From Scatolibacter rhodanostii (GTDB lineage Bacteria; Bacillota; Clostridia; Oscillospirales; Acutalibacteraceae), in contig NZ_FZLO01000005.1 of assembly GCF_900197595.1 (NCBI RefSeq), positions 1-64,000 of the forward strand: a stretch of DNA of 64,000 nt, in the 5' to 3' direction. The position numbers and the translations under genes were made by a program. The notes under the pieces are model-generated. The model did no database searches. It was not told where the DNA came from and was given only the letters and a program-made list of their open reading frames with translations. Positions 1 to 20,573 of this stretch are shown one piece after another; the stretch's first letter is position 1; each line of letters starts with the position of its first letter.

Positions 1-2
1 CA

Positions 3-122: not shown

Positions 123-193
123 TTAAGTAGCGTATCGTTTCGGCGGTGCGCTTTTCTTATACCCAAAAATCAATCACAGGAGGTGGTGACGAT

Positions 194-2093: not shown

Positions 2094-2105
2094 CGAGGTG
2101 AAAAT

Positions 2106-5073: not shown

Positions 5074-5081
5074 GGTGGCTC

Positions 5082-5291
5082 ATGATAAAAATTACTACTG
5101 CTCAAAAAGAATATTTGTCTTCGTATATTGATGATATAGACGATTTACTCACAAAAGAAACGGATGAACAGCTGCTTTCCTCGATTGATGATGTAATTGT
5201 TAATGAGTATGATGACCAACAGGAGAACCTATCTGAAGAAGGCGTAAAGCTCCAAAAAATATATGATGAGATTTTTGAGATGAACGATTAA
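5082..5291 (+). CDS. Small acidic protein, candidate immunity protein for the MuF toxin domain
   Basis: A 69-residue, strongly acidic protein with runs such as YIDDIDDLL and SSIDDVIVNEYDD and no membrane segment. ATG 5082 has GAGG eight bases upstream; the gene begins 8 bp after the minor head stop. I do not recognise the family. Position, size and charge fit an immunity protein that binds a basic nuclease domain: in MuF polymorphic toxin loci a small immunity gene directly follows the toxin-bearing head gene. It is the last gene before a terminator at 5317-5347. The functional call is inference from context only. Confidence 0.6.
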   Translation: MIKITTAQKEYLSSYIDDIDDLLTKETDEQLLSSIDDVIVNEYDDQQENLSEEGVKLQKIYDEIFEMND

Positions 5292-5316
5292 GTATAAATT
5301 TAATATCCGTTAACAC

Positions 5317-5347
5317 GCACGCTTCCTTTTGGGGGCGTGCTGTTTTT
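5317..5347 (+). terminator. Rho-independent terminator after MuF toxin/immunity pair
   Basis: GCACGC (5317-5322) pairs with GCGTGC (5335-5340), extended by CC/GG pairs, and is followed by TGTTTTT. It separates the packaging and MuF unit from the scaffold-capsid genes, so those may have their own promoter or depend on read-through. Confidence 0.75.
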
Positions 5348-5389
5348 ATACAATTTTTTAACCCCCATAAGGGAAGAAAGGAAGGTTTT

Positions 5390-5941
5390 ATGAAGAAAGA
5401 AGAATTATTGGCTCTTGGTGTTCCGGAGGATAAAGTAGAAAAAATCTTGGAAATCAACAAAAATGATGTTGAGGAGGAGCAGGGTAAAACAACCGAGTTG
5501 CAGGGTCAGCTTACCACGGTGCAGACACAGCTGAAAAGCTTTGAGGGTGTGGATGTGGAAAAACTGCAGGGTAAAATCACAGAGCTGCAGACTGATTTAC
5601 AGACAAAAGAAACAGAATATCAGCAGAAATTGGCAGAGCAAGCTTTTAGTGCGCTGGTCAATGAGCAAGCGATGTCCGCAAAGTGTAAAAACGCAAAAGC
5701 GGTTATGGCTTTGCTTGATTTAGATAGTCTGAAATCCAGCCAAAACCAAAAAGAGGATATTGCAAAAGCTATCAAGACACTGCAGGAATCAGACGGGTAT
5801 CTGTTTGAATCTACTAAGCCGGCGACACGACACCTTAACAGTACAAAGCCTGGGCAGGGTAGAGATGGTTTGCCCGATGATACACCCACACCGCTTACAC
5901 TGGAAGAGGCGGTCAGAAACACACTAGAAAAATCTGAATAA
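5390..5941 (+). CDS. Phage capsid scaffolding protein (GP20-like)
   Basis: A 183-residue, mostly helical, Gln/Glu/Lys-rich protein with a long predicted coiled coil from about residue 20 to 90 and a loop-rich C-terminus (residues 150-170 with GQGRDGLPDDTPTP). This matches phage minor structural protein GP20, the scaffold that guides capsid assembly. ATG 5390 follows AAGGAAGG. It sits directly before the major capsid gene, the usual order. Its basic/acidic C-terminal segment would be the part that contacts capsid subunits. Confidence 0.85.
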   Translation: MKKEELLALGVPEDKVEKILEINKNDVEEEQGKTTELQGQLTTVQTQLKSFEGVDVEKLQGKITELQTDLQTKETEYQQKLAEQAFSALVNEQAMSAKCKNAKAVMALLDLDSLKSSQNQKEDIAKAIKTLQESDGYLFESTKPATRHLNSTKPGQGRDGLPDDTPTPLTLEEAVRNTLEKSE

Positions 5942-5959
5942 AGAGAGGAATTTAACATT

Positions 5960-6913
5960 ATGGCAGTAACATTAGCACAAGCAAGGCTCAACGTACAGGA
6001 TGATTTGCAGGTGGGAGTCATTGACGAATTTGCAAAATCAAACTTTTTGTTTAACAATCTTACTTTTGATGATTGCGTATCACCTACAGGAGGCGGAGCA
6101 ACGCTCACTTATGGCTATACTCGTTTAATCACACAGCCGAAAGCTGAGTTTAGAGCTGTCAATAACGAATACAGCACTCACGAGGTAGACAAACAGCGCC
6201 ATACCGTAGACTTGAAAGTGTTCGGTGGTGCATTTGCGGTGGACCGTATTATTGCCGGTATGGGCGGCATTGTATCAGAGGTTACTCTTCAGATGCAGCA
6301 GAAAATTAAAGCGGCATCTGCTCTTTTCAACGATACAGTAATCAACGGAGATTCAGCGGTAGAAGAAAAAGCTTTTGACGGTTTGGAAAAAGCCATTGCC
6401 GGTTCTTCCACGGAATATATTCCCTCAGCTGTCATTGATTTATCCACGTCAGCGGCAGTAGACAGCAACTATAAAGAATTTTTGGATATTCTGGATGAAT
6501 TCCTAATGGGATTGGACGGTACTCCCTCGGCTATTATGGGAAATCTCAAACTAATTGCCAAAATCAGAGCTTGCGCCAGACGTGCCGGTATGTATCAAAC
6601 AAGCAAAAACAACTTCGGCCAGCAGATTGAACATTACGGCTCAACTCCATTAATCGATTTGGGAGAGAAACCCGGCGAAAATAAGCCTGTATCAGGTATT
6701 GATGCGGAAGGCACAACTTCCCTCTATGCGGTGCGTTTTGGTTTAGACGGGTTCCATGCGGTTTCTATGTCAGGTCAGCCTCCTGTTAAAACATGGCTGC
6801 CTGATTACAGCACATCAGGTGCCGTCAAAAAAGGCGAGGTCGAAATGGTGGCAGCGGTTGCCTTAAAAGCCACAAAAGCAGCCGGGGCATTAAGACAAAT
6901 TAAAGTGAAATAA
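5960..6913 (+). CDS. Phage major capsid protein
   Basis: A 317-residue protein with no homologue-specific motif I can quote, but its place immediately after the scaffold, its high expression-type RBS (AGAGAGG), and segments such as DKQRHTVDLKVFGGAFAVDR and FLMGLDGTPSAIMGNLKL are typical of HK97-fold capsid proteins of Firmicute prophages. No long N-terminal delta domain is present, consistent with use of a separate scaffold. The frame is intact. Confidence 0.85.
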   Translation: MAVTLAQARLNVQDDLQVGVIDEFAKSNFLFNNLTFDDCVSPTGGGATLTYGYTRLITQPKAEFRAVNNEYSTHEVDKQRHTVDLKVFGGAFAVDRIIAGMGGIVSEVTLQMQQKIKAASALFNDTVINGDSAVEEKAFDGLEKAIAGSSTEYIPSAVIDLSTSAAVDSNYKEFLDILDEFLMGLDGTPSAIMGNLKLIAKIRACARRAGMYQTSKNNFGQQIEHYGSTPLIDLGEKPGENKPVSGIDAEGTTSLYAVRFGLDGFHAVSMSGQPPVKTWLPDYSTSGAVKKGEVEMVAAVALKATKAAGALRQIKVK

Positions 6914-6925
6914 GGAGGTTTTATC

Positions 6926-7243
6926 ATGACTAAGATTATCGCTCCCAACAAGCAATATGCCGGTGTTTCTGCCGGCATTACGTTTGTAAATGGCGTTGGT
7001 GAAACGGAAGACGAACATTTAATAAAATGGTTTGAGTCAAAGGGGTATAACATAGAACGGGAAGAACCTTTGCCAGAACAGGAAGAAGAGCCTGAAGAAG
7101 AAATTCCTGCTGAAGGAGTTTTAATAGAGGGAGAATCACAAGAACAAGAAGAAATCCCTCCAGTACAGGAAGAGGTTGTAGAAATTGATGAAGCGGCTTC
7201 TGCAGAAGAGAAAAAGCCCAAGAGCAGCAAAAGAAAGGGATAA
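6926..7243 (+). CDS. Conserved phage head-region protein, Glu-rich C-terminus
   Basis: A 105-residue protein starting ATG 6926 with AAGGAGG upstream. The first 45 residues (IIAPNKQYAGVSAGITF, then DEHLIKWFESKGYNIE) match a small module common just after major capsid genes in Clostridia and Bacillus prophages. It may be a LEM/YqbF-like fold. The rest is low-complexity Glu/Pro and ends in a Lys/Ser-rich tail, so it is probably disordered. Role unknown; perhaps a head decoration or connector accessory. Confidence 0.65.
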   Translation: MTKIIAPNKQYAGVSAGITFVNGVGETEDEHLIKWFESKGYNIEREEPLPEQEEEPEEEIPAEGVLIEGESQEQEEIPPVQEEVVEIDEAASAEEKKPKSSKRKG

Positions 7244-7245
7244 CA

Positions 7246-7632
7246 ATGGAAATCAAAGATCAAGTCAGCAAAAGAATTCTTGGCTTTGGTTATGCCGTCG
7301 CAGATTCTGACGGATTCATGCTTGATTTTTCTATTGAGAAAGCGGAAACAGAAATTCAGAATATCTGTAATATTTCTGATATTCCAGTAGGTTTAAAATA
7401 TGTGTGGATTGACCGTGCGGCCGGCATATTTCTTTCTGAAAAAGCAGCTGTTTCTGCAGACGGATTTATTCCGCAAATCACAGCCGGCAGTGTGAAGCAA
7501 ATCAAAGAGGGAGATGTCACAGTGTCTTATACAGACGAAGAAACTCCTTTGCAAAAATTTGAAAGGTTGATTTCTACTCTGAAGAACAGCGGAAAAGGGC
7601 AGTTTGAACAATATAGGCGCCTAACATGGTGA
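7246..7632 (+). CDS. Head-tail connector protein, YqbG-like
   Basis: A 128-residue protein in the slot of YqbG/gp6-type connector subunits, between the capsid genes and the stopper. The helical N-terminus, DRAAGIFLSEKAA segment and YTDEETPLQKFERLI C-terminal helix fit this family. It should form a ring below the portal. It starts 2 bp after the preceding stop and overlaps the next gene by 7 bp, so translation is coupled. Confidence 0.7.
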   Translation: MEIKDQVSKRILGFGYAVADSDGFMLDFSIEKAETEIQNICNISDIPVGLKYVWIDRAAGIFLSEKAAVSADGFIPQITAGSVKQIKEGDVTVSYTDEETPLQKFERLISTLKNSGKGQFEQYRRLTW

Positions 7633-7985
7633 CAACCTATCAAAGAACAGTCTTCAGTATGTTTACTGCAAGCTGTACAGTAAAAGTTAGAAAAGGCAGA
7701 ACCAATCCTGTGACAGAAATGGAAGAATTTACAGAGAATATGATTTTTGAAAATGAACCTTGCCGCATTTCTTTTCAGTCTACATCGCCTTCTTCTGACG
7801 GTGATACACCAAAGATATTCCAGCAAGTCAAGCTATTGATATCCAAAGACAAAGAAATCCCTTCCGGCTCTAAAATTACAGTAACCCAAAATAGGCATAC
7901 CGAAACCTACACAAGGAGCGGTATGCCCTCTATTTATTCTGTTCATCAAGAAATTCCCGTTGAACTGTTCAAAGGGTGGGCGTAG
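7626..7985 (+). CDS. Head-completion/stopper protein, YqbH/XkdH-like
   Basis: A 119-residue, beta-rich protein (CRISFQSTSPSSDGDTPKIF, then VKLLISKDKEIPSGSKITV) that matches the XkdH/YqbH group in order and composition. These proteins close the connector after DNA packaging. The start overlaps the YqbG-like gene end, and the stop lies at the start of the next gene. No anomalies seen. Confidence 0.7.
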   Translation: MVTTYQRTVFSMFTASCTVKVRKGRTNPVTEMEEFTENMIFENEPCRISFQSTSPSSDGDTPKIFQQVKLLISKDKEIPSGSKITVTQNRHTETYTRSGMPSIYSVHQEIPVELFKGWA

Positions 7986-8488
7986 TGAGTAAAAATGTAA
8001 ACTATGAGGATTTAAAGAATTTGCTGAAACGCTTGGAAGCAGCGGAACAGGAAAGTCCTGCATTTGTTGAAAAGCTAGCTAAACAAATAGCAGCACGGCT
8101 TTTAAGAGCGTTAAAAAAGAATACTCCGGTTTATGAAACTCCGGATTATCTTAATCCTATTAAGGATTATGAAAAAAGAGCGCAGTATCAGTTTAAACGA
8201 ACAGGCGGCACTTTGCGGAGAGCATGGACAGCAGAACGTGTCCAAATCAAAGGCGATATAGTTCAAATCACAATTTTTAATCCAATGGAATATGCCTCTT
8301 ACGTTAATTATGGTCATCGGCAAACACCAGGGAGATATGTTCCGCAAATTGGATTAAGGCTCAAAAAGTCATGGGTTCAAGGTAGTTTCTTCATGGAAAA
8401 ATCGGAAAATCAGACAGAACAGTATATTCAACAAATGCTAGAACCGCAAATTATGCAATTCTTGAAAGGGGTATTTGATGGTAAATGA
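7985..8488 (+). CDS. HK97 gp10-like / XkdI tail completion protein
   Basis: A 167-residue protein. The block NYEDLKNLLKRLEAAE followed by KTGGTLRRAWT-like and NPMEYASYVNYGHRQ motifs is characteristic of the HK97 gp10/XkdI family (tail-terminator or head-tail joining factor). GTG 7985 has AAGGGTGG about seven bases upstream; the GTG at 7976 is too close to that site. It overlaps the next gene by 11 bp. Confidence 0.8.
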   Translation: MSKNVNYEDLKNLLKRLEAAEQESPAFVEKLAKQIAARLLRALKKNTPVYETPDYLNPIKDYEKRAQYQFKRTGGTLRRAWTAERVQIKGDIVQITIFNPMEYASYVNYGHRQTPGRYVPQIGLRLKKSWVQGSFFMEKSENQTEQYIQQMLEPQIMQFLKGVFDGK

Positions 8489-8903
8489 GGTAATTGGTGC
8501 CGTCAGCCGTAAGCTAAAACAAGTTTATGGTCATACGGTTTATGGCGCAGAAAAGCCGATGCAGGAATTTAAGACACCCTCTTTTTTGATTACTTTATTG
8601 GATATGTCTGATACAGCAAAACTAGGAAAGCGGTTTAGCCGCCAAATTGCACTTAATATTCAGCACTTTTCGGAAAATGAAGAGAATTTAGTGGAAGCGT
8701 GGACTATTTCCGGCACAATTCTGAAAGAGTTGGAATGGCTAACGCTACCAAACAATGACCTCATTAGAGCAGAAGCGATGCGATGTGAAGTGATAGACGG
8801 CACATTAAACGCTTTTTTGACGTATACACTTCCAATGACAGAAAAAGTAGTGGCCGAACCCGATATGGAAAATTTAGAGCTTATCGCAAGAAAGGAACCG
8901 TAA
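8478..8903 (+). CDS. XkdJ/YqbJ-like minor structural protein
   Basis: A 141-residue protein in the XkdJ slot just before the sheath. It has a helical start (VNEVIGAVSRKLKQVYG), a central beta pattern (PSFLITLLDMSDTAKLG) and a FLTYTLPM C-terminal strand, which resembles tail-terminator folds. ATG 8478 has AAAGGGG upstream and overlaps the XkdI-like stop. The likely role is capping the tail tube; this is inferred from order. Confidence 0.65.
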   Translation: MVNEVIGAVSRKLKQVYGHTVYGAEKPMQEFKTPSFLITLLDMSDTAKLGKRFSRQIALNIQHFSENEENLVEAWTISGTILKELEWLTLPNNDLIRAEAMRCEVIDGTLNAFLTYTLPMTEKVVAEPDMENLELIARKEP

Positions 8904-8904
8904 T

Positions 8905-9084
8905 ATGGCAAAAGCAAACCTTGAAAAAGAGGAATCAGTATTTTCTAAAAATCAGCTTTTACAAGCAAAGCGATTTAAAGAAAAAACAGACATTTTGCAA
9001 GCAGTGCTAAACGAGAAAGAAAACTATACGATTGAACAAGCAGAAAAGCTTATCAATCAATTTTTACAAAGGAGGCTAAAATAA
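8905..9084 (+). CDS. Small conserved protein upstream of tail sheath
   Basis: A 59-residue protein, ATG 8905 to TAA 9082-9084, whose stop overlaps the sheath ATG (TAATG). Segments FSKNQLLQAKRFKEKTDILQAVL and YTIEQAEKLINQFL match a short helical protein that nearly always precedes XkdK-type sheath genes in Firmicute prophages. Its function is not known to me. AGGAGG within its last codons is the ribosome site for the sheath gene. Confidence 0.75.
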   Translation: MAKANLEKEESVFSKNQLLQAKRFKEKTDILQAVLNEKENYTIEQAEKLINQFLQRRLK

Positions 9085-10397
9085 TGGCTTTAGGTGGCGG
9101 AACATTTCAAACAATCAATAAACCTTTGCCAGGTATTTATCACAATTTTGTGAGTGCGGCAAAAGTAGGAAGCACACTTTCAGAAAGAGGGACAGCTGCA
9201 GTACCTTTCATCGGAGACTGGGGTGCTGAAGAGACAGTTATAAAACTAACAGCAGAAGATTTCCAAAAAGATTCTTTAGAGATTTTGGGGTATTCGGTAG
9301 ACAATCCTAAGCTTGTCATGTGGCGAGAGCTGTTTCGTCATGCCAATACCGTCTATGCATATCGGCTCAACGGTGGCGCAAAAGCAGAAAATATCTTTTG
9401 CACAGCAAGATATGGCGGTATAGGAGGGAATCATCTAAAGACGGTGATTTATGCCAATGTAGACAATCCGTCACAATTTGACGTGTGCACGTATTTGGAT
9501 ATTACTTTGGTAGATAAACAGACGGTGCAAGATATCAGTGAACTGCATAGTAATGAATACGTCACCTGGAAAAAAGAAGTGGAGCTCAAGACAGAAGCAG
9601 GAGTTCCACTGGTGAATGGGACAAATGAAATCGCATCAGCTGCAGGATATCAGAATTTTCTCGGCGTAATGGAAAGCTATCATTTTGACGCTTTATGCTG
9701 TCCTTCAGAAGATGATACAGTCAAAGCTCTTTTTGTGGCTTATACAAAACGACTCCGGGAAGAAACGGGGGTAAAATTTCAGACTGTTTTATTCCAGCAT
9801 TCCACGGCCGACTATGAAGGTGTTATATCCGTTGAAAATGAGATAGAAAGCGGAGATACATCTGTGTTGACAAAAAGCGGATTAATTTACTGGGTGACTG
9901 GTATGATTGCCGGTTGTACGGTAAATGAGTCTAATACCAACTGTAAATATGACGGCGAACTAAGCGTAAAAGCGGACTATACGCAGGAGCAGCTTGCAGA
10001 AGCTCTTAATACAGGTAAGTTTGTCCTGCACAATGTCAGCGGCGATATTAGGGTGCTAGAGGATATCAATACACTAGTGACCTACACGGAAGAAAAAAAT
10101 ATTGATTTTAAGCAAAATCAAGTGGTTCGAGTGCTTGACCAGATTGCTAACGATACGGCTACAATCTTTGCACAGAAATATCTTGGCAAAGTCCCAAATG
10201 ATGCTGCCGGAAGAACCAGCTTGTGGAATGATATTCTGCGCAATCGCCAGCAGCTTGAAGAGATAAGGGCCATAGAGAACTATGACAAAGAATCTTTGGT
10301 TATAGAGGCATATGGCAAAAAAGCAGTAGTGGCAAAAGAAGCTGTACAGGTTATTAATGCAATGACACAGCTTTATATGACAACAACCGTTGAATAA
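9084..10397 (+). CDS. xkdK: Contractile tail sheath protein, XkdK-like
   Basis: A 437-residue tail sheath subunit, usual length for PBSX XkdK. The start ALGGGTFQTINKPLPGIYHNF is the family's hallmark N-terminal arm; the C-terminal half has VNAMTQLYMTTT, the strand exchanged between subunits. It polymerises around the tube and contracts on infection. Its presence shows a contractile (myovirus or tailocin type) tail. The frame is intact and translation is coupled to the upstream small protein. Confidence 0.93.
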   Translation: MALGGGTFQTINKPLPGIYHNFVSAAKVGSTLSERGTAAVPFIGDWGAEETVIKLTAEDFQKDSLEILGYSVDNPKLVMWRELFRHANTVYAYRLNGGAKAENIFCTARYGGIGGNHLKTVIYANVDNPSQFDVCTYLDITLVDKQTVQDISELHSNEYVTWKKEVELKTEAGVPLVNGTNEIASAAGYQNFLGVMESYHFDALCCPSEDDTVKALFVAYTKRLREETGVKFQTVLFQHSTADYEGVISVENEIESGDTSVLTKSGLIYWVTGMIAGCTVNESNTNCKYDGELSVKADYTQEQLAEALNTGKFVLHNVSGDIRVLEDINTLVTYTEEKNIDFKQNQVVRVLDQIANDTATIFAQKYLGKVPNDAAGRTSLWNDILRNRQQLEEIRAIENYDKESLVIEAYGKKAVVAKEAVQVINAMTQLYMTTTVE

Positions 10398-10409
10398 GGA
10401 GGAATTTAT

Positions 10410-10877
10410 ATGGCTTTTATGAAAGCAATGGATGTCTTGTCGGCTTCGTTGGCAGAATGTTATGTGACAATGCAAGGGCAGCGGTATAAGTTTGCCCAAG
10501 CTCTAAACCTAGAAGCAAAAATGGAAAAAACAAAAGATGAAGTGCCGATTTTGGGCAAGACAGGCAAGGGGAATCGCTCTACCGGCTGGAAAGGAACAGG
10601 CTCAGCCACTTTCTATTTCAATACCTCGATTTTCCGTGAACTTTTATATCGTTATAAAGAGAGCGGCGAAGATGTTTATTTTGATATCCAAGTGACCAAT
10701 GAGGACCCGACTTCTTCTGCTGGCCGTCAAACCGTAATCTTAAAAGATTGCAATATGGACAGCGGTATTTTGGCTAAATTTGATGCAGAGGGCGGATATT
10801 TGGAAGAAGAAATGGACTTCACTTTCGAAGATTGGGAAATGCCGGAAAAATTTAAACCGATTCCGGGCATGCAATAA
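10410..10877 (+). CDS. xkdM: Tail tube protein, XkdM-like
   Basis: A 155-residue inner tube subunit, 12 bp after the sheath gene with AAGGAGG. Features include AQALNLEAKMEKTKDEVPI, KTGKGNRSTGWKGTG and a beta-rich C-terminal part ending EDWEMPEKFKPIPG, all typical of XkdM. It would stack as hexameric rings inside the sheath. Confidence 0.92.
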   Translation: MAFMKAMDVLSASLAECYVTMQGQRYKFAQALNLEAKMEKTKDEVPILGKTGKGNRSTGWKGTGSATFYFNTSIFRELLYRYKESGEDVYFDIQVTNEDPTSSAGRQTVILKDCNMDSGILAKFDAEGGYLEEEMDFTFEDWEMPEKFKPIPGMQ

Positions 10878-10899
10878 GAATAAGAAAGGATAATGTGAT

Positions 10900-11313
10900 A
10901 TGGATTTGAAAGCTTTTTTAAGAGAAAATGTTGAGGCAGTTGAGCCGGTAAAGGTGGCAGTGTCAAAACGAATGAAAGATGAAAACGGGGCGCCTGTTCC
11001 ATGGGTAATTGGCTGTATTTCCAGCAACGAGGACAGTATTTTGCGCAAAGAATGCACCAAGACAGTAAAAAAAGGAAAGAAACAATCGGCAGAATTTGAC
11101 TATCCTGCATATCAAACAAAATTAGCCGTTAAATGTATTCAATTCCCCGATCTAGCGGATGCTGTCTTGCAAGACAGTTATGGTGTGATGTGCGCAGAAG
11201 ACTTGCTGAACGCTATGCTTTTGCCGGGAGAGATGAGTGATTTAGCCCAAGCTGTAACCGATATCAATGGGTTTGCCAGTTTTGAAGAAGAGGTAGACGA
11301 AGCAAAAAACTAA
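10900..11313 (+). CDS. xkdN: Tail assembly chaperone, XkdN-like (zero-frame product)
   Basis: A 137-residue protein with N-terminal DLKAFLRENVEAVEP and VSKRMKD blocks of the XkdN/YqbN chaperone family, located between tube and tape measure where G/GT-type chaperones always sit. It ends EEEVDEAKN at TAA 11311. The last codons contain the slippery heptamer A AAA AAC, and the -1 frame stays open afterwards, so a longer frameshift product is expected. Both forms would coat the tape measure during tail assembly. Confidence 0.87.
   Translation: MDLKAFLRENVEAVEPVKVAVSKRMKDENGAPVPWVIGCISSNEDSILRKECTKTVKKGKKQSAEFDYPAYQTKLAVKCIQFPDLADAVLQDSYGVMCAEDLLNAMLLPGEMSDLAQAVTDINGFASFEEEVDEAKN
11304..11310 (+). 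promoter_or_regulatory. Slippery heptamer for programmed -1 frameshift
   Basis: A AAA AAC in the zero frame of the XkdN-like gene, immediately followed by the zero-frame stop TAA. It obeys the X XXY YYZ rule, and the -1 frame downstream encodes the expected chaperone extension. I see no strong pseudoknot by eye. Confidence 0.75.
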
Positions 11314-11486
11314 TCAACGAGGGTGACTATGAAGCGAATATAGCGTACTATTGCTTACACAAATTCCATATGTTGCCCTCGCAATATTTATCTTTACCTC
11401 GTGAAGAAAAAGCGTTTATTGTGGCTGCCATTGAAATCAGAGTAGAAAATGAGAAAAAGGAAGCGGCGAAAGTACGAAAACATTAA
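11304..11486 (+). CDS. -1 frameshift extension of the tail assembly chaperone
   Basis: After a -1 slip at A AAA AAC (11304-11310) the reading continues KKLINEGDYEANIAYYCLHK and then FHMLPSQYLSLPREEKAF to TAA 11484-11486, adding about 60 residues for a fusion of about 195. There is no good start codon or ribosome site for independent translation. The extension, with its LPREEKAFIVAAIEIR helix, looks like the T domain of GT-type chaperones. This is the conserved dsDNA-phage tail frameshift; usage in vivo is inferred. Confidence 0.8.
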   Translation, partial: KKLINEGDYEANIAYYCLHKFHMLPSQYLSLPREEKAFIVAAIEIRVENEKKEAAKVRKH

Positions 11487-11552
11487 TATCCCTAGACTTT
11501 ATTTTAAAATTGGTTTATTATGGTAATATTCAATAATGTTTTGGAGGGTATT

Positions 11553-12215
11553 ATGAACGGTAAAAAAATAGCTGGAATTATTCTCTTGTGTATTACAAGC
11601 TTCGTACTGGTAGTAGAACTTGCAAGGGGCACTCTTGATTTAGTGGAAACGCTTCCGATTACAATTATTTTTATGATAATAGGGCTGATTTTACTTGTGA
11701 GTAAATCTAAGAAACAAAAAGAAGAAAAGCTGATACAAAATCAAGAACGAAATAAAATAAAAAGCAAAGAGGCTCTTGAGCGGGGTACAACTCTCTACTT
11801 AAAACATGCTACAGGTTTGCCATTGGCCGAAGGGACTTTCTGTACTTTGACAGTTAACTTAGACGGATTCAACATTGCGGGCGGCGGGGCTGATTTTAAG
11901 CTTTCAAAAGAAAAAATTACAGTTGTTGATATTGTTTCTGATGTAGATGTCCAAAAGCATTATGTGTCAAGCGCTGGAGGAGCCGTTGGAGGGGCAATTT
12001 TATTTGGTGGTTTGGGCGCGTTGGTTGGAGGAAGAACAAAGGAAAAGACTTCTACGAGTATTACAAATTATTTGATTATCAATTTTCTTAAAGATAATCA
12101 AATTAATAATATCAGTTTTGAAATTCCAGAAAGTGAATATTTTAAGGCGACAACAATGAAGAATCATTTTGGAAGAGCTTTTAGCAACGATACAAAAACG
12201 GCGATAGACCTATAA
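11553..12215 (+). CDS. Membrane protein of unknown function inserted in the tail module (moron-like)
   Basis: A 220-residue protein from ATG 11553 (GGAGGGT upstream). Two membrane helices (GIILLCITSFVLVVEL, ITIIFMIIGLILLV) are followed by a charged coil of about 25 residues. The soluble domain contains SSAGGAVGGAILFGG and LVGGRTKEKTSTSITNYLII. This Gly-rich hairpin plus TNYL strand recurs in small Firmicute membrane/PH-like proteins of unknown role. It is not a tail gene: it sits between chaperone and tape measure, has its own ribosome site and is closed by a strong terminator, the layout of a moron. It may be expressed in the lysogen. I cannot name a function. Confidence 0.65.
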   Translation: MNGKKIAGIILLCITSFVLVVELARGTLDLVETLPITIIFMIIGLILLVSKSKKQKEEKLIQNQERNKIKSKEALERGTTLYLKHATGLPLAEGTFCTLTVNLDGFNIAGGGADFKLSKEKITVVDIVSDVDVQKHYVSSAGGAVGGAILFGGLGALVGGRTKEKTSTSITNYLIINFLKDNQINNISFEIPESEYFKATTMKNHFGRAFSNDTKTAIDL

Positions 12216-12240
12216 AGTATATATAGAAAAAAAACGAAAG

Positions 12241-12268
12241 AAGCACCCTTGCTATTGCGGGGTGCTTT
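12241..12268 (+). terminator. Rho-independent terminator after moron-like gene
   Basis: AAGCACCC (12241-12248) pairs with GGGTGCTT (12260-12267), followed by TCCTTAT. It lies between the inserted membrane gene and the tape measure gene, so it would limit read-through of the insert into the tail operon. Confidence 0.75.
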
Positions 12269-12286
12269 CCTTATATCCAAAAGGAG

Positions 12287-14464
12287 GTGGTAATAATCGG
12301 AACTCTACGCAGCTCGGTAGATTTACAAGACAGAATGACACCTGTTTTTCGTTCAATGATAAGTGTCATGAATTCGGTGATTAATTCTTTCGATTCCTTG
12401 GACAACGCTTCTCAAAGTGCCTTAGATCCTGCACAGATACAATCGGCACAACAAGAATTATCTAAAATGAATGGTGTTTTAGATAACATTGAAAATGAAA
12501 TCTCACAGAATAAGAATGAACAAGAACGTTTTAATAATTCAATTAGAAATGGTCAATCTGCAATGGGAGGGCTTGAAAAGAAAGTTCTTGGTTTAGCAGC
12601 TGCCTATCTATCGGTTCAGAGTGCACAGAAAGTTATTGGGTTATCAGATACTATGACCCAAACAACAGCACGATTAAATATGATGAATGACGGCTTGCAA
12701 ACCACAAAACAATTGCAGGATAAAATTTTCTTGGCCGCAGAGCGTTCTCGTGGTGCCTATCTTAATACAGCTGATGCCGTTTCTAAAATGGGGATTATGG
12801 CTAAAGATGCTTTTGGCAGTAATGATGAACTAATCGCTTTTTCAGAACAACTTAACAAACAGTTTGTTATTGCAGGTACATCTACACAAGGGGTAGATGC
12901 TGCCATGCTTCAGCTTACACAAGCCATGGGTTCAGGGGTGCTTAGAGGGGAAGAACTTAATAGTGTATTTGAACAAGCTCCTACGATTATTCAGACCATT
13001 GCAGATTATATGGACGTTCCCATCGGGCAAATTCGGGACATGGCAAGTGAAGGGCAAATAACTGCCGATATTGTAAAATCGGCACTGCTTTCTGCAGCGG
13101 ATGAAACCAACGCAAAATTTGAGCAGATGCCGATGACCTTTGCACAAATAGGAACCAGCATACAGAATAATGCCCTGATGGCTTTTCAACCAGTATTGGA
13201 ACGATTAAACGAGATAGCCAATAGTGAGCGGTTTCAAAATTTGGTGTCGGGTGTAATAAATGCATTGGTAACTGTTTCAGGCATTGTCATGACAATATTC
13301 GATTTGGTGGCAACGGTTGGCAGTTTTATGTATGATAACTGGTCGATATTAGAACCAATTATTATGGGAGTTGTGAGTGCTTTAATGCTGTATATGTTGT
13401 ACTTAGGTATTTCTAATGTTATGGAGGCAGCAAACAATATTTCCAAAGGTATTGCAGCTGTAAGAGCATACGCAGCCGCAGCTGCAAACACAGCTCTTGC
13501 GGCAGCTGAAAGAAATGAAGCCATGGCAAAGGCGAGTGCCACAGCTGCACAATACGGATTTAATGCAGCACTACTAGCTTCTCCTGTCACATGGATTGTC
13601 CTTGCAATTATTGCTTTAATAGTTGTTATATATGCGGTGGTAGCAGCCATTAACAAAGTAACAGGTTCAACTATTTCAGCTACCGGAATTATTATGGGTG
13701 CGTTTGCATTTGTTGGTGCTGCTATCTGGAACATCATTGTGGGTGTAGTCAATGCAGTAATTGGTATTGGTATTGAACTGTATAATCTGATTGCAACATT
13801 CGCAAATTTCTTTGCGAATGTGTTCAATGACCCTGTTGGTGCAATCATCAATTTATTCAGTGGAATGTTTGACTTTATTCTTGGGATTGTTCAAGCAGCA
13901 GCAAAATTAATTGATACAATACTGAAAACTGATATGGCAGGTGCAGTTGAAGGATTCAGGAATACGGTTGCTGAAAAAACGGCTGAAATTGTTGGCGACC
14001 AAGTTGTCGTTATGGAAAAATTGAATGCTTCTGATTATCAGTTTAGTGGTCTTGACTATGGCGAAGCTTGGGATGCGGGTTATAATTTTGGCGAAGGAAT
14101 AGAAAATAAGGTCGGAAATATGTTTAATCCAGATGACCTTACAAGTAATATTCCAAACCCAGGAGATTATCCTGCCTATGACCTTAGTGGGTACGGTGGC
14201 ACAGCAGGAAACATAGCGGATACAGCTGATAATACCGGACGTATGGCGGACACAATGGACAAATCTGAAACGGAACTAAAATATCTCCGTGAAATTGCAG
14301 AAAGACAGGCAATCAACAAATTCACCACGGCAGAAGTAAAAATTGATATGACAGGAATGCGTAATGAGATTAAGTCAGATGATGATATTGACGGCTTAGT
14401 CTATAAATTCACAAATAAGTTAGAAGAAGTTCTTCTGATTACTGCAGAGGGGGTACCAGTGTAA
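12287..14464 (+). CDS. Tail tape measure protein, XkdO-like
   Basis: A protein of about 725 residues that sets tail length. It has a tape-measure N-terminal domain (LNMMNDGLQTTKQLQDKIF, LNKQFVIAGTSTQGVDAAML, GEELNSVFEQAPTIIQTIAD), then several hydrophobic helices around residues 320-530 and an Ala-rich coil. The translation start is odd: the perfect AGGAGG (12282-12287) overlaps the only canonical in-frame start, GTG 12287. The family start (GT-LR-SVDLQD) begins at codons ATA ATC GGA, at proper spacing. Either a near-cognate ATA/ATC start is used or the ATG has mutated. It is short compared with the roughly 1300 residues of B. subtilis XkdO, implying a short tail. Confidence 0.88.
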   Translation: MVIIGTLRSSVDLQDRMTPVFRSMISVMNSVINSFDSLDNASQSALDPAQIQSAQQELSKMNGVLDNIENEISQNKNEQERFNNSIRNGQSAMGGLEKKVLGLAAAYLSVQSAQKVIGLSDTMTQTTARLNMMNDGLQTTKQLQDKIFLAAERSRGAYLNTADAVSKMGIMAKDAFGSNDELIAFSEQLNKQFVIAGTSTQGVDAAMLQLTQAMGSGVLRGEELNSVFEQAPTIIQTIADYMDVPIGQIRDMASEGQITADIVKSALLSAADETNAKFEQMPMTFAQIGTSIQNNALMAFQPVLERLNEIANSERFQNLVSGVINALVTVSGIVMTIFDLVATVGSFMYDNWSILEPIIMGVVSALMLYMLYLGISNVMEAANNISKGIAAVRAYAAAAANTALAAAERNEAMAKASATAAQYGFNAALLASPVTWIVLAIIALIVVIYAVVAAINKVTGSTISATGIIMGAFAFVGAAIWNIIVGVVNAVIGIGIELYNLIATFANFFANVFNDPVGAIINLFSGMFDFILGIVQAAAKLIDTILKTDMAGAVEGFRNTVAEKTAEIVGDQVVVMEKLNASDYQFSGLDYGEAWDAGYNFGEGIENKVGNMFNPDDLTSNIPNPGDYPAYDLSGYGGTAGNIADTADNTGRMADTMDKSETELKYLREIAERQAINKFTTAEVKIDMTGMRNEIKSDDDIDGLVYKFTNKLEEVLLITAEGVPV

Positions 14465-15156
14465 TGTATCAATTCTATCTCAATGATGTGTTATTTCCGA
14501 TTGCTCCCGGAAGCGTAAAAATTAAAACCAGCAATAAGAACAAGACATTAAACTTGATTAATGACGGAGAAATCAATATCTTAAAGGCACCAGGGCTCTC
14601 TGAAATCAGTTTCAAACTGCTTTTACCCAACGTAGAATATCCCTTTGCTCGCTATGCAAAAGCTGGCAAGGGGACTTTTAAAGAAGGAGCTTATTATTTA
14701 GCTTTGTTCAACAAAATTAAGGCAGAAAGAAAAATAGTACCTTTTGTCATTCTGCGTACACTGGATAATGGCCGTCAGCTTGACTGGGATACATCCATGA
14801 AAGTGAGTATTGAAGATTACACGATTGAGGAAAATGCCAAAGAGGGAATTGACTTCGTGGTCGATTTGAAGCTTAAGCAGTATCGGGAATATGGCACTAA
14901 AATTGTAGTTATTCAGCAGAAAAAAGCTTCGGTGCAAAATAATCGTGATACATCCACCAAACCAGCTGTAAAAAGCTATACGATAAAATCAGGTGATACA
15001 CTATGGGATATCGCTCGCACACAGCTTGGCAATGGTACAAAATGGACAGCAATTTATAATGCTAACAAAATACTAATAGACGATACCGCTCGAAAAAGAG
15101 GGTTGTCTACTGGCGGACACTGGATTTTTCCGGGTACTGTCTTGACAATTCCGTGA
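14464..15156 (+). CDS. xkdP: LysM-containing tail protein, XkdP-like
   Basis: A 230-residue baseplate/tail-hub protein with a C-terminal LysM domain (SYTIKSGDTLWDIARTQLG, residues about 175-230) that may bind peptidoglycan or tail components. The N-terminal part (FYLNDVLFPIAPGSVKIK) is the XkdP/YqbP signature. GTGTAATG overlaps the tape measure stop. The frame is intact. Confidence 0.9.
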   Translation: MYQFYLNDVLFPIAPGSVKIKTSNKNKTLNLINDGEINILKAPGLSEISFKLLLPNVEYPFARYAKAGKGTFKEGAYYLALFNKIKAERKIVPFVILRTLDNGRQLDWDTSMKVSIEDYTIEENAKEGIDFVVDLKLKQYREYGTKIVVIQQKKASVQNNRDTSTKPAVKSYTIKSGDTLWDIARTQLGNGTKWTAIYNANKILIDDTARKRGLSTGGHWIFPGTVLTIP

Positions 15157-15164
15157 GGTGAACG

Positions 15165-16199
15165 ATGAGCAGAGTTTTACAAAATTACGGAAATCAAGTC
15201 ACACAGGGGTATCATAGCTCTCATCATGGCATTGACCTGATTGGCAGTCACGGCGGCACGGATTATGTGGTAGCACATTCTGCCGGAACGGTGACGGCCG
15301 CTGTTTCAGGCTATGGAAATCGTCAAGGTTCTTCCGGTATGACGGCTTATGGAAATTATGTGGATGTAACGCATACAGACGGCAGCTTTACCCGATATGC
15401 CCATTTGCAGTATGTTTCTGTCAGCAAGGGTAAAAAGGTGAATAGCGGCGATGTGCTGGGATATATGGGCAATACAGGAAATTCTTATGGAGCGCATTTG
15501 CATTTTGAATATTGGAACGCTTCGGGAGTGAGAAGTGACCCTACACCATATATTGATGCAGATTTACCGGGACTAAATTCTAGCACAACCGCAAACTCCT
15601 CTAAAGCAAAGGCAGAGAAAGAAACCAAAGATATTACAAAAGTAGTCGTGAAATCTGTGGAGGGCAGTACCGCACAGCATAGCACAGGAAACTTAACTGA
15701 CACAAAAATGCTTTCGGCAGGTGTGGAAATCTTGATTCAAAACGGAGACAAAATCATGCTGCCCTGTGTAAAAGATGATATAACGCTAGAGTCGCACCGC
15801 AAGGGAAGCCCTGCGGTGCTTAAATTTTCCTGTGTGAAAGACAGTAACCTGAACTTTCAAGAGGGAAATGCTGTTTCTTTGCGTGTGAACAAAGCCAATG
15901 TGTTTTATGGTTATATATTCGAGAAAAAGCATTCATCAGATATGCCAGTCATTCAGGTGACTTGCTATGACCAACTCCGGTACTTCAAAAATAAAGATAC
16001 CTACATTTATACCAATAAAAAGTATTCTGATTTGATCCGTATGCTGGTAGGCGATTTTCATTTGGCTCTCGGTACGATTGAAGACACAGGGTATCCGATG
16101 AGCAGAGCAGAAGAAACAACCTTGTTTGATATTTGCGGCAATGCTTCAGATGAAACCGTACTCAATACAGGCAAAGTATTGGTACAGACGACGTGGTGA
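15165..16199 (+). pseudogene. M23 peptidase/XkdQ-like tail hub protein, 3'-truncated at a recombination junction
   Basis: Residues 1-140 form an M23 (LytM-type) zinc endopeptidase with HHGIDL and HLHFEYW metal-site motifs; this would cut cell-wall peptide bridges. Residues about 180-340 begin an XkdQ/gpD-like hub (SAGVEILIQNGDKIML, VTCYDQLRYFKNKDTYIY, AEETTLFDICGNA). XkdQ should continue after LNTGKV with a long conserved second half. Instead the protein stops at TGA 16197 after VLVQTTW. The DNA after about 16187 encodes, in another frame, the second half of an unrelated siphophage tail protein. I read this as a deletion/recombination scar. The peptidase domain could still be made. GAGGTG precedes ATG 15165. 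Confidence 0.75.
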
Positions 16200-17353
16200 T
16201 TACAGGCATACAGGTAACGGAAGATACCGAAGAATCGGACTCACCAACGTTTATGTCAGGAACACCCGGCTATGTGCTTGGAATTGACGGCAATCCTTTT
16301 GTTCAAGCAGGACAGGGACAGACGGTGGCCAATTATCTCGGCGCCAAAATAGTCGGATTGCGGTTTAGACCATTATCCGTGTCGGCATTGTCAGACCCTA
16401 GCATTGAAGCTGGTGACGTAGCTATCGTATCAGACCGCAAAGGCAATTCGTATCGCTGCCATCTATCGAATCTCTCTTTCACTGTGGGGCAAATGGAGAA
16501 CTTTTCATGCGATGCGGCCACGCCCAGCCGCAAAAGTGCAGCCAGTTATTCAGCTGTTACAAAAGCAATTGTAGAGATGCGAAATCGGGTAAAAGTTGAA
16601 ACCACCGCTCGTGAGCAGGCAATCGCTGATTTAACCAATACACTGGCAAACAGTTCAGGATTATTTAGTACAGATGTTACTCAACCGGATGGCTCTAAAA
16701 TCCGCTATGCCCACGATAAAAAGACACTGGCAGAATCCACGATTGTATGGAAGTTTACAGCCGAAGCATGGGCGGTTAGCACAGATGGAGGCAAGACTTA
16801 TCCAACCGGATTTACCATGAACGGTGATATGGTGGCGAGAATGCTATCTGTTGTGGGACTGGATGCAGATTGGATAAAAGCTGGTAATTTAAAGGCACTT
16901 AACGGCAAGACCGAAATTAATATGAATACAGGTGTTGCAAAGCTGACAGGTAGTCTAACCACAGCCAGTAGTGATGGAGTTTATACTGCCGATACATCGG
17001 GCGGTGGCATTTGGGTAAAAAAAGACGGGCAAAATGTAGGGTGGCTTGCTGGTATGAATCATCCGACAGACGGATATATTACATGGTTAAAAACGCAAAG
17101 AATCGATGCAACCTCTATTGATGTAAAAAGTATGTGGATACCTAAGACAGATGGCAAAACATATCAGTTTTTACAATCTAGTGATGACGCAGTTACACTA
17201 AGAAATGTGGGGTCTATAGGTGGGGCATCCGGAGGCATGGATGTTTATGACGTTAAAAAGATGTATCTAAAAGCTGGAAACGGCGGCGAAGTCAAATGGA
17301 AGCAAGTCAGATTAGCGGATGGTGGCACAGCACAAGCATTGTGCTTAGTATAG
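16187..17353 (+). pseudogene. Siphophage-type tail (endopeptidase/spike) protein, 5'-truncated
   Basis: The open frame begins without a ribosome site inside the end of the XkdQ-like gene and reads DDVVITGIQVTE, then YLGAKIVGLRFRPLSVSAL, EAGDVAIVSDRKGNSY, REQAIADLTNTLANSSG, and an ending repeat-like VKSMWIPKTDGKTYQF. These are the C-terminal portion of siphophage minor tail proteins (phi11/TP901-1 Tal or gp58-like), whose N-terminal half is missing. GTG 16193 could be reached by termination-reinitiation (GTGGTGA overlap). About 385 residues remain; the gene would normally exceed 700. It replaces the XkdS/XkdT baseplate region expected in a contractile phage. Confidence 0.75.
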
Positions 17354-17365
17354 GGAGGAATAATT

Positions 17366-18565
17366 ATGGCAATTGTAATGCGCCGAGGGAAGTATAATGA
17401 CTTCGATGCAAGTAAAATGTTGCCTGGCGAAATAGCGGTGGTACTTTCGGGTGATTCTTCCGCTGTGGATGGAAGAACATTCTACATCTGCTTTGAGCCG
17501 GGCAAGGTCAAACGTTTAATGACCTTTGAAGATTTAAAACGAGAAATTGACAGCGTAACAGCGGACATTGTGGAACAGGTTACAGTGGTAGCCGATAAAG
17601 CCGAAAACGCAGGCGATAGGCTAGATGCTGCGGATGATATTTTGGATTTACTAACGCAGAAAACGACGGCAGCAAATACAGCTAAAACACAGTTAGAAAG
17701 CGCCACAGGAACAGCCAATACGGCACGCGCAAATCTTGTAACTGTTACAACCGCTGCCAATACTGCAAAGGGTCAGCTTGATACTAGCACTACGGCAGCA
17801 AATACAGCACGCACAAATCTTGTAAATACAACTACCGCCGCAGATACCGCTAAGAATAATCTTACTACGGCAACTACAGCGGCCAACACCGCAAAAGGTC
17901 AATTGGATACTGCCACAAGCACAGCCAATACCGCTCGAACCAACCTTGCAAATGTGACTACTACTGCAAACACAGTAAAAACAGATTTGAATACTGCTGT
18001 CAGCAAGGCAAATGAAGCAATTGGAAATCTTAATCCGATTCAAGAACAAATTGACGGAATAAAAAACACGAAAGTCAACGGTAAAATATTATCATCAGAT
18101 ATCACTCTGAATGGTAGTGATATCCACGCTGGGATTCAAGGAGAGACACTGACAGTTGCCCAGTATCTGCAAAGTTTGGCAGACAATAAGCTTGAGAAGG
18201 CTTCTTTGCTAAATCTTGTCTATCCCGTTGGAGCAATCTATATCAGCATTACCAGCACAAATCCATCAACTATAATTGGCGGTACTTGGGTGGCATTTGC
18301 ACAAGGACAGACTCTAGTCGGTGTCAATCCGTCCGATGCAGATTTTAATATGGCGCAAAAAACTGGTGGCAGTAAAACCATATCGTTAACAGATACTCAA
18401 GTTGGTGCAAAGAAATCAGGCGTAGAAGCTACAGGTTATGGGTTAGGCTCAGCAGCAGCTTTTGCTAATCGTGTATTAGTTGGGTATAGCCATAGCAATC
18501 CACGAGAGGAAATCAACCAATTACAGCCTTACATTACTGTATATATGTGGCGCAGGACAGCGTAA
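17366..18565 (+). CDS. Tail fibre protein with 14-residue repeats and gp10-like C-terminal domain
   Basis: A 399-residue protein. The N-terminal 55 residues (MAIVMRRGKYNDFDASKMLP, then GEIAVVLSGD) are the fibre-attachment module common to siphophage baseplate fibres. Residues 100-225 consist of nine 14-residue units of the form TTAANTAKxQLxxA, alternating AK..QL and AR..NL types. The C-terminal domain (YPVGAIYISITSTNPSTIIG, ending LQPYITVYMWRR) is the phage baseplate gp10/collar receptor-binding type. It is likely a trimeric fibre that contacts the host surface. ATG 17366 follows GGGAGGA. The frame is intact. Confidence 0.83.
   Translation: MAIVMRRGKYNDFDASKMLPGEIAVVLSGDSSAVDGRTFYICFEPGKVKRLMTFEDLKREIDSVTADIVEQVTVVADKAENAGDRLDAADDILDLLTQKTTAANTAKTQLESATGTANTARANLVTVTTAANTAKGQLDTSTTAANTARTNLVNTTTAADTAKNNLTTATTAANTAKGQLDTATSTANTARTNLANVTTTANTVKTDLNTAVSKANEAIGNLNPIQEQIDGIKNTKVNGKILSSDITLNGSDIHAGIQGETLTVAQYLQSLADNKLEKASLLNLVYPVGAIYISITSTNPSTIIGGTWVAFAQGQTLVGVNPSDADFNMAQKTGGSKTISLTDTQVGAKKSGVEATGYGLGSAAAFANRVLVGYSHSNPREEINQLQPYITVYMWRRTA
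17663..18040 (+). repeat. In-frame 42-bp tandem repeats in tail fibre gene
   Basis: Nine degenerate 42-bp units encode the 14-residue repeats; units alternate in a 28-residue super-period (AK..QL then AR..NL). The heptad-compatible period indicates a trimeric coiled-coil shaft. Copy number is likely to vary between strains. Confidence 0.8.
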
Positions 18566-18581
18566 AAGAAAGGCAATCAAA

Positions 18582-19043
18582 ATGAAAGAAAATGCGTTGA
18601 TAAAAGTTTTATCCGTTATACAAGAAAACAGCGTGTCTACCGTCATTGGAATTATCGGCAGCACAATTGCTGCTCTATTTGGAGGTTGGGACGTGGCCTT
18701 GACTACACTAATCATTTTTATGGCAATTGACTACATATCAGGACTTGTCGTTGCAAAGCTTGGCAAATCGCTTAAATCACCAAATGGAGGTTTAGATAGC
18801 AGGACTGGGTTTAAAGGACTTATGCGCAAAGGCATGATTTTAGTTATGGTATTGGTTGCAGCGCTACTGGACAAAGTCATTGGGACAAGCTTTGTCCGTG
18901 ATGCCGTTGTCATTGCGTATTTAGCCAATGAGGCGATATCTATCACAGAAAATGCTGGGCTTATGGGTGTGCCTATCAATCCTGCCATTACAAAGTCGAT
19001 TGACATACTAAAAAACAAGTCTAAAGAGGCGCAGGAAAAATGA
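18582..19043 (+). CDS. Phage holin, toxin-secretion/holin 4 family
   Basis: A 153-residue membrane protein from ATG 18582 (AAAGAAAGG upstream). Three to four hydrophobic segments (VIGIIGSTIAALFG, TLIIFMAIDYISGLVVAKL, GMILVMVLVAALLDKVIG, VIAYLANEAISITENAGLMG) and the motif DSRTGFKGLMRKG match the Bacteriophage_holin_4/TcdE-like family, which forms pores for endolysin release. It is the last phage gene; no endolysin follows, although an amidase or lysozyme gene is normally next. Confidence 0.88.
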   Translation: MKENALIKVLSVIQENSVSTVIGIIGSTIAALFGGWDVALTTLIIFMAIDYISGLVVAKLGKSLKSPNGGLDSRTGFKGLMRKGMILVMVLVAALLDKVIGTSFVRDAVVIAYLANEAISITENAGLMGVPINPAITKSIDILKNKSKEAQEK

Positions 19044-19095
19044 GATGCTGGCTAAAGTGATGGGAACAGAGCTCTCTTGTGCAAGTGGCAATGTA

Positions 19096-19115
19096 GATTC
19101 TCAAATTTGAGAATC
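19096..19115. repeat. Perfect 20-bp palindrome after holin
   Basis: GATTCTCAAA followed by its exact reverse complement TTTGAGAATC. It lies where an endolysin gene or the phage right end is expected. It could be a recombination site, protein-binding site or part of a degraded gene; no function is assigned. Confidence 0.6.
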
Positions 19116-19140
19116 CGTCGTTTGCTGCTCAATACAGGAC

Positions 19141-19184
19141 GGGCTAGCAATATTATCTTTACTAAAAACAAGATTGCTAGCCCC
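19141..19184. repeat. Inverted repeat between holin and terminator
   Basis: GGGCTAGCAAT (19141-19151) pairs with ATTGCTAGCCC (19173-19183) around a 21-nt A/T-rich loop. There is no T-run, so it is not a classical terminator. It may be a structured RNA end or a phage-end site. Confidence 0.5.
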
Positions 19185-19208
19185 ATTCCAAGCTATTAGA
19201 ATTTGATT

Positions 19209-19245
19209 AGCCCCTCTTTGCGTTATGCAGAGAGGGGCTTTCTTA
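19209..19245 (+). terminator. Rho-independent terminator of prophage late operon
   Basis: AGCCCCTCT (19209-19217) pairs with AGAGGGGCT (19231-19239) and is followed by TTCTTATT. It closes the late gene run and probably lies near the phage-host border. Confidence 0.85.
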
Positions 19246-19328
19246 TTGATTTATAAAGTGAAGCTAAAACCTTTCAAAACGGTTTTAATTATATTTTTGT
19301 AAATTTGGCGGCTACACAAAAATGTTTA

Positions 19329-20573
19329 TTAATGATAACAATTTTTACAAGGTCTGCTTTTGCCAGATGCGCCGATTGACCCTGAATAAATATTTTTTGA
19401 CCTACCCAGTGAAGGACAATCTTTTGTACTATGGTAAACTTCACCGCTAGAGACCCAATACACAGTCTGACCGACTGCAGCTGATTCTTGCTCTTGTGCT
19501 GCCGCTTCAGCTGCTGCTCTTTCCTCTTGCGCAGCAGCTTCGGTAGCTGCAGCTTTTTCTTCTGATATTCGCTGGTATTCTTGCTCGTTTGTCATTAAGT
19601 TTTCATAATTGGTAACATATTGTTTCACTTTATCTGGTAAAGCATCATACGTTGTCCTTGCCTGTGTAATGCTTGCTTGGCTATCAATTGATATGTGGTT
19701 GATTGCTTCTACAACAGGAGCTGCCGCAGCCTCTAGTTTTAGTACATTTAGACCCTTTTCTGCTTCAATCAGTATAGTGACAGATTCATTAGGTATCTTC
19801 GCTTTTATACTATGGTCACTTTCATCATAGAGAGCTCTTGCTTTTACAATCGTTGGCTCGCTGTCAAGTGTGACATCGCCTATTGCTTTAATAGCGGCAC
19901 TAATAGGCTCAATCAATTGATTATATCGCGCTTCAATTTCCTGTTCAGCCTTTTCTAACTGATTGACACTCGAGACAGTTTTTTTCCATTCTGAATCCAT
20001 AGAATCATAAAGCTGTCTGACTTGCTTTATATCATTTTCCTTATCAATGGTAACAGGGGATAATGCAGCTATTTTCTCTTCTAAAGAGGAGACAGCTTCT
20101 ACACGGGCGGTATTCACAACTTGTACTTCCAAAATATTGCTGCTTATATCGCCATAACCTATTGTAATGTCAGCATTGCCTTCAGCAGTTTGGCTTTGAA
20201 TAGCTAGGCGGTACTCTTTGTTTTCATAGTCTGATAGGTCTTTTACTGCCAGTAAATTATTAGGAGAAACTAGAAAAGATAGTTCACCTTCATTAATTTT
20301 AGCGCTGGCAGGCGACACGGTGAACGTCACTTCTTTGCTTGTGTTCAAATCAAATGAAACAATATTGCTGTCAATTTCAATAGATTCTGGCTTAGGGGGT
20401 TTTCCAAAAATAGCAGCAATAAAAATAAGAGTCCAAAAACTTAGGAGAACATACAAAGAGATATTTTTCCACTTTTTTAACCCCGGATATTTCTTTTTAA
20501 TTAAGAAAAATCCTAAAGGAAAGAACACGATAGAACTTAAGATAATGACCCATCTTTTCTGATACCAGACCAT
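19329..20573 (-). CDS. Membrane-anchored protein with FIVAR-like helices and C-terminal Cys/His motif
   Basis: A 414-residue protein with two N-terminal membrane helices (VIILSSIVFFPLGFFLI, LYVLLSFWTLIFIAAIF), a beta-rich Ig-like domain (residues about 65-150), and three to four helical repeats with an ALYDE/TYDALPDKVKQYV pattern like FIVAR/G5-linker modules of Gram-positive surface proteins. An Ala/Glu coil follows. The C-terminus is VYHSTKDCPSLGRSKN, then GKSRPCKNCYH, a compact CxxC/His motif often attached to such proteins and probably metal-binding. GGAGGGG precedes the start. It faces the prophage on the opposite strand and is the first clear non-phage gene. Function unknown. Confidence 0.7.
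   Translation of the reverse strand: MVWYQKRWVIILSSIVFFPLGFFLIKKKYPGLKKWKNISLYVLLSFWTLIFIAAIFGKPPKPESIEIDSNIVSFDLNTSKEVTFTVSPASAKINEGELSFLVSPNNLLAVKDLSDYENKEYRLAIQSQTAEGNADITIGYGDISSNILEVQVVNTARVEAVSSLEEKIAALSPVTIDKENDIKQVRQLYDSMDSEWKKTVSSVNQLEKAEQEIEARYNQLIEPISAAIKAIGDVTLDSEPTIVKARALYDESDHSIKAKIPNESVTILIEAEKGLNVLKLEAAAAPVVEAINHISIDSQASITQARTTYDALPDKVKQYVTNYENLMTNEQEYQRISEEKAAATEAAAQEERAAAEAAAQEQESAAVGQTVYWVSSGEVYHSTKDCPSLGRSKNIYSGSIGASGKSRPCKNCYH

Follow-up and report, generated by a model that had tools for sequence, protein, structure and literature searches.

The window, that is the whole stretch analysed here, comprises the initial 64 kb of contig C7, which belongs to a draft genome of 2.7 Mb in 13 contigs, and phage structural genes fill it from the contig start to about 19 kb. 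Their order is presumed small terminase, large terminase, portal, head genes, sheath, tube, XkdN-type chaperone, tape measure and LysM protein, followed in that order by ORF A, ORF B, fibre and holin. Some of the head genes were labelled from position only. The presumed small terminase matched helix-turn-helix families, with no terminase family above cut-off, and owes its label to its position. The + strand encodes a tail sheath protein of a contractile tail (9084–10397; PF04984, 1.6e-30, and three further sheath domains; the genome has no other sheath match), an XkdM-type tail tube protein (10410–10877; PF09393, 3.8e-54), an XkdN-like tail assembly chaperone (10900–11313; PF08890, 1.1e-44), a tape measure protein (12287–14464; PF20155, 3.8e-46; phrog_1068, 2.3e-232) and an XkdP-like LysM protein (14464–15156; LysM, 9.3e-9). 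A 231-residue protein (11520–12215) lies between chaperone and tape measure; it gave a weak PHROG match only (phrog_17658, function unknown, 1.3e-10) and no blastp match in the XkdQ or Tal locus sets described below, and is possibly the product of a cargo gene. Behind ORF B, also on the + strand, lie a tail fibre with a Gp10_C-like C-terminal domain (17366–18565; PF21939, 8.7e-25), in whose translation the middle is a long series of T-, A- and N-rich repeats that resemble one another, and a holin (18582–19043; PF05105, 4e-36), whose start at ATG 18582 was our choice inside the listed ORF 18480–19043. The next long ORF (19329–20573) is on the opposite strand and had no Pfam match. A separate phage-tail-like cluster with Baseplate_J was found on contig C4 of the same genome (L102, 10437–18726), where by our reading of the ORFs hub-like and head-like genes are also present. 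The end of contig C3, with the start of a large-terminase-like gene (L254, 18195–18467; TerL_ATPase, 1.8e-4, just below cut-off), probably carries another phage element.

ORF A (15165–16199, + strand) joins an M23 peptidase domain (about 15219–15530; PF01551, 8.4e-22) to an XkdQ hub of which only the first half is present (15780–16181). It matched PF24032, the XkdQ / YQBQ-like hub family, over positions 1–136 of 294 (E=2.2e-42), and its score of 145.9 bits against a curated cut-off of 27 places it in the family. It is not a full-length hub of about 294 positions in one frame, 158 of the 294 profile positions being unmatched. In an alignment with ten XkdQ relatives, nine from viral loci plus phiC2, ORF A was family-like up to NTGKVLV, from which the relatives proceed with LYDDFGKL or similar. 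A few out-of-family residues follow the XkdQ part before the stop; the frame reads ...NASDETVLNTGKVLVQTTW and ends at the TGA of 16197–16199, confirming the original prediction that the XkdQ-like frame runs to LNTGKV and stops at 16199. Clostridioides phage phiC2, whose tail module is PBSX-type contractile and is annotated as similar to EJ-1 and XkdM, shows the same order of sheath, tube, tape measure, LysM protein and XkdQ-type gene, and the sheath, tube, chaperone, tape measure, LysM and XkdQ parts of the two are 39–71% identical. However, phiC2 has a full XkdQ followed by XkdR/S/T/U, whereas XkdQ of the window ends half-way and the remainder is missing. M23 is fused in front of XkdQ in the window, while phiC2 has extra sequence behind instead. 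Peptidoglycan-hydrolase domains were seen fused ahead of XkdQ hubs in several phages (the window at 15219–15530; L040, 9296–10966; L026; L045; L046), the hydrolase types being M23, glucosaminidase with NlpC/P60 or Amidase_5, and ELLD with 3D.

ORF B (16193–17353, + strand) corresponds to a siphophage Tal minus its N-terminal part. Its match to phrog_6616 covered positions 230–498 of 991 (E=1.4e-81, 275.8 bits), identifying it as Tal by sequence, and in the whole-genome scan this match extended to profile position 225, at window position 16172. Like the PF24032 match of ORF A, it lies far outside what chance would give. Its frame, which reads ...QSIGTDDVVITGIQVTE..., stays open between 16154 and the stop at 17351–17353. 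Like siphophage Tal proteins of the phrog_6616 kind, ORF B aligns over the final part of the hub and into the beginning of the extension. Unlike them, it lacks profile positions 1 to about 225–229, where the XkdQ half stands in the other frame; no N-terminal Tal hub part precedes it in frame, which opens at 16154, 11 residues ahead of the match. When aligned with eight Tal sequences, one of which, the Tal of contig C9, aligns poorly in the hub part, ORF B was family-like from TDDVVITG. A tail protein of Blautia phage Montmirail is 32% identical to it over ORF B residues 1–236. GTG 16193 and GTG 16196 are the start candidates, the latter codon (16196–16198) overlapping the TGA of ORF A, and no Shine-Dalgarno sequence was seen by eye ahead of either. 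From the alignments (10 XkdQ, 8 Tal) and the ends of the profile matches, the junction was placed between about 16172 and 16187 on the + strand, where homology changes from XkdQ, with NTGKVLV as the last residues, to Tal, with TDDVVITG as the first in the −1 frame relative to ORF A. A different frame had been predicted from about 16187; the Tal-like −1 frame is indeed there, but the switch may lie up to 15 bases further left. Neither G+C nor third-position G+C showed a clear step at the junction, and composition was discarded as an uninformative marker of it.

The remaining parts of both hubs were searched for in the genome. Profiles of XkdR, XkdS, XkdT and XkdU gave no match in window positions 1–22000, and the single Baseplate_J match of the genome was that on contig C4. 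PF24032 had one further match in the genome (C7:162375; 18.1 bits, below the cut-off of 27), which was rejected as the missing XkdQ half and attributed to chance; we read its neighbours as regulator-like and methyltransferase-like. The profile phrog_6616 matched ORF B and the prophage of C9 only. With the one sub-cut-off PF24032 match and phrog_6616 confined to these two places, neither missing half turned up at another place in the assembly. The earlier statements that neither half has its partner and that the XkdR/S/T baseplate genes are absent after XkdQ are thus borne out, and XkdU is absent too.

Each gene of the window was compared by blastp with 79 XkdQ and 80 Tal viral loci. Among the 79 XkdQ loci, matches were found for the sheath in 51, the tube in 52, the chaperone in 53, the tape measure in 74, and the LysM protein and the XkdQ part in all 79, while none of these six matched in the Tal loci (0/80). 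ORF B residues 1–125 and 125–265 matched in 80/80 Tal loci and in no XkdQ locus; the sole match to the last third of ORF B was C9. Because the loci were selected with XkdQ and ORF B, the counts for these two genes are bound to be high. The fibre matched in 37/80 Tal loci versus 1/79 XkdQ loci and the holin in 7/80 versus 2/79. The tail genes therefore change class at the junction, with matches in contractile-phage loci before it and mainly in Tal loci after it. The head genes do not sort cleanly by phage type: the presumed capsid protein matched in seven XkdQ loci and one Tal locus (identity 80% in an XkdQ locus and 67% in the Tal locus), the presumed scaffold in 13 XkdQ and two Tal loci, and the small terminase, large terminase and portal in neither set. 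The M23 part matched in one XkdQ locus and six other loci.

The same loci were surveyed for a second case of the arrangement, using profiles built in this analysis with a threshold of E 1e-6. The sheath, XkdQ and XkdR–U profiles were seeded from the same locus sets (plus phiC2) and the Tal profile came from an alignment that included ORF B, so that these profiles favour presence, and it is the absences that carry information. The viral XkdQ set (80 of 219 loci kept, one being the window's own record, hence n=79) represents 42 loci at 90% identity, and 58/79 reach at least 2 kb behind XkdQ. XkdQ was full-length in 75/79, the remaining four ending at a contig end, and was accompanied by XkdR in 71, XkdS in 66, XkdT in 62, XkdU in 57 and a sheath by profile in 51. 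In 63 XkdQ loci from genomes, XkdQ was full in 61, cut by the contig end in one, and in one (L327) broken in frame near its end, where the rest continues in another frame without Tal; XkdR was present in 61, XkdS in 59, XkdT in 58, XkdU in 56 and the sheath in 53. A Tal part near XkdQ was found in 0/79 viral and 0/63 genome loci. Of 100 viral Tal loci 80 were kept (65 at 90% identity), 60 of which reach at least 6.2 kb (6200 bases) upstream. The Tal N-terminal part was in frame, with at least 183 residues ahead of the ORF B part, in 80/80 (five at a contig end), and a sheath or XkdQ was present in 0/80. ORF B had a match in 17/398 genomes of the family, its own included; five of the other 16 had a sheath match, always on a different contig of these drafts. 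Partial XkdQ without Tal in the fetched stretch was seen in two other genomes of the family (G148, G175), and in a third (G143) XkdQ was cut by the contig end. Since the XkdQ of G148, G175 and L327 is truncated without Tal, the event in the window is not the only one in which XkdQ has lost parts. The half-XkdQ/half-Tal arrangement, as judged from these sequences, has no second example among the loci examined (79 and 63 XkdQ, 80 Tal), and a recurrent two-part organisation in many phages, which would have spoken against the original prediction, was not seen. No XkdQ-Tal hybrid was found in titles and abstract openings of the literature, and we do not claim that none is in print.

The structural relationship of the two halves was examined on relatives. 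A comparison of the Tal and XkdQ profiles gave one collinear alignment (E 0.0014) with a probability of only 18%, which is weak alone. AlphaFold models were made of relatives rather than of the window halves, one of a full XkdQ (mean pLDDT 86.4) and one of a Tal (81.5). The XkdQ-related structure 9g8s_q was matched by the XkdQ model with Z 25.0 (288 aligned, rmsd 3.8) and by the Tal model with Z 19.6 (279 aligned, rmsd 4.0). Z scores were 17.8 and 16.9, respectively, for T4 gp27 (1k28_D), and 14.1 and 15.2 for Listeria prophage gp18 (3gs9). The resemblance of Tal N-terminal domains to gp27 is already on record, as outlined in PMC9437275. In these models the relatives of both halves have the same gp27/VgrG-like hub fold, indicating that the halves are not unrelated and that the join sits inside equivalent proteins. 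By our estimate, made from the order of secondary-structure strands by eye rather than from a computed superposition, the join would link residue ~173 of the XkdQ model to residue ~281 of the Tal model (XkdQ counterpart ~213), so that it would skip about 40 hub residues and fall short of collinear.

The left edge of the contractile block lies at the end of the first 202 bases, in which a cupin-type gene ends (3–119) and the presumed small terminase begins with its first codons. The starts of C7 and C9 are identical over the first 127 bases and 98.5% identical over 203 aligned bases, after which they diverge. The cupin label is the annotation of tblastn matches in plasmids, and Pfam gave no match for the 39 cupin-type residues. 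In C9 the gene after the shared stretch is a small terminase (Terminase_2), and the contig carries a prophage with its own Tal, which we take as siphophage-type because of this Tal and because the window holds the genome's single sheath match. Two prophages of one genome share sequence ahead of the first packaging gene. Within the assembly the first 200 bases of the window occur in C7 and C9 only; the contig ends of C3 and C12 have no 20-base word in common with the window start, and an exact 47-base piece of this start had no match in viral contigs. Between window positions 1–20000 and the first 40 kb of C9, the sole other DNA similarity was at 16649–17165 (+ strand) within ORF B, 79% identical over 519 aligned bases to the C9 Tal gene. 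The C9 prophage was rejected as direct donor of the right arm, as only this stretch is similar and the hub parts differ. The C9 Tal (L093, 14862–16715), compared with window 16562–17350, has another hub part and a similar extension (62% identical residues over ORF B 127–388); in these phages the two parts seem to be swapped independently of each other.

Siphophage-like DNA thus flanks the contractile block on both sides, which argues for replacement or insertion of the block over simple deletion. We consider it highly probable that the window holds a mosaic, most likely defective prophage, with a contractile-phage block in a siphophage-like backbone and a crossover inside the tail-hub gene. 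A phiC2/PBSX-type contractile block, beginning with the presumed small terminase and ending midway in xkdQ (about 203–16180), would have been set in a siphophage-like backbone, of which the 202 bases ahead of the block and the Tal C-terminal part, fibre and holin behind it would be what is seen. The right-hand crossover would have fallen inside the hub gene on both sides, with loss of the second half of XkdQ and XkdR-S-T-U on one side and of the Tal N-terminal part on the other, and would have left the join one base out of frame. Replacement of about 203 to 16180 would account for both ends. We infer this direction of exchange, and the mechanism would have been non-homologous (illegitimate). 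Close relatives of the two parents, from which the crossovers and any microhomology at them could have been read, were not found. A contractile tail requires a hub and an XkdT-type (Baseplate_J) wedge, and judging from the gene content no working tail would therefore be expected to form. The predicted defective contractile tail was soundly drawn from the genes, and the siphophage-type fibre set also stands, fibre and holin matching mainly Tal loci.

Deletion between two side-by-side prophages of the same orientation, joining a contractile left arm to a siphophage right arm, would yield an identical right-hand product, and several phage elements are present in this genome; on its own it leaves the 98.5% match to C9 ahead of the block unexplained, unless the contractile phage already had it, and we regard it as improbable. 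The original prediction of deletion or recombination between two prophages is accordingly well supported as regards recombination of a contractile phage with a siphophage, but not as regards plain deletion of neighbours. That the join at 16180 is an assembly chimera absent from the cell deserves little credence. The draft is in 13 contigs, the common 127-base start of C7 and C9 looks like, and probably is, an assembly fork, and the other copy of the join, in IMG/VR contig 2788500071, is 100% identical and probably stems from the same assembly. On the other hand, no repeat was found at the join: window 15700–16700 gave no genome match other than itself at E ≤ 0.001 (26/26 candidates scored), and 16080–16299 gave short weak matches in the parts of the assembly examined, the best by E-value being 25 bases at 84%, so that there was no evident repeat on which an assembler could have switched.

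It is very unlikely that ORF A and ORF B, co-translated via the overlap of TGA 16197–16199 and GTG 16196–16198, form a functional two-chain hub that places a siphophage tip on a sheathed tail. Both frames are open, the modelled relatives of both are gp27-like, and the split would fall between strands in roughly the right order; however, an estimated 40 or so hub residues would be missing at the split, the XkdR–U genes are absent and none of the relatives examined has such an arrangement. Hardly any probability attaches to a tail with a split gp27-like hub, a sheath without XkdT wedges and a siphophage tip, which would stem from a contractile/non-contractile crossover at near-equivalent places of the hub. 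A programmed −1 frameshift giving an A-B fusion can practically be dismissed. Frame B does lie at −1 relative to A, and from its opening at 16154 the two frames run together for 46 bases, up to the last base of the ORF A stop; but the overlap (16150–16199) contains no X XXY YYZ slippery heptamer and no such fusion occurs in the examined loci.

Defective mosaic prophages ('grounded' or cryptic), arising by exchange between phages and gene loss, are outlined in PMC6379469. The mosaic prophage of the window resembles them in that phages have exchanged DNA and genes were lost, and differs from those described in that its join falls within the hub gene and connects tail modules of the contractile and the non-contractile type. 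As a case of phage gene shuffling and decay the event is clear but ordinary, one more example of a kind already known. It provides a mapped case in which a contractile and a non-contractile phage exchanged DNA with the break inside the hub fold common to both. For annotation it is a warning that a sheath gene beside siphophage-tip genes need not mean a new tail type. The join in the window appears to be a failed one, with baseplate genes and reading frame lost, and joins of this sort are the raw material by which tail types could change.
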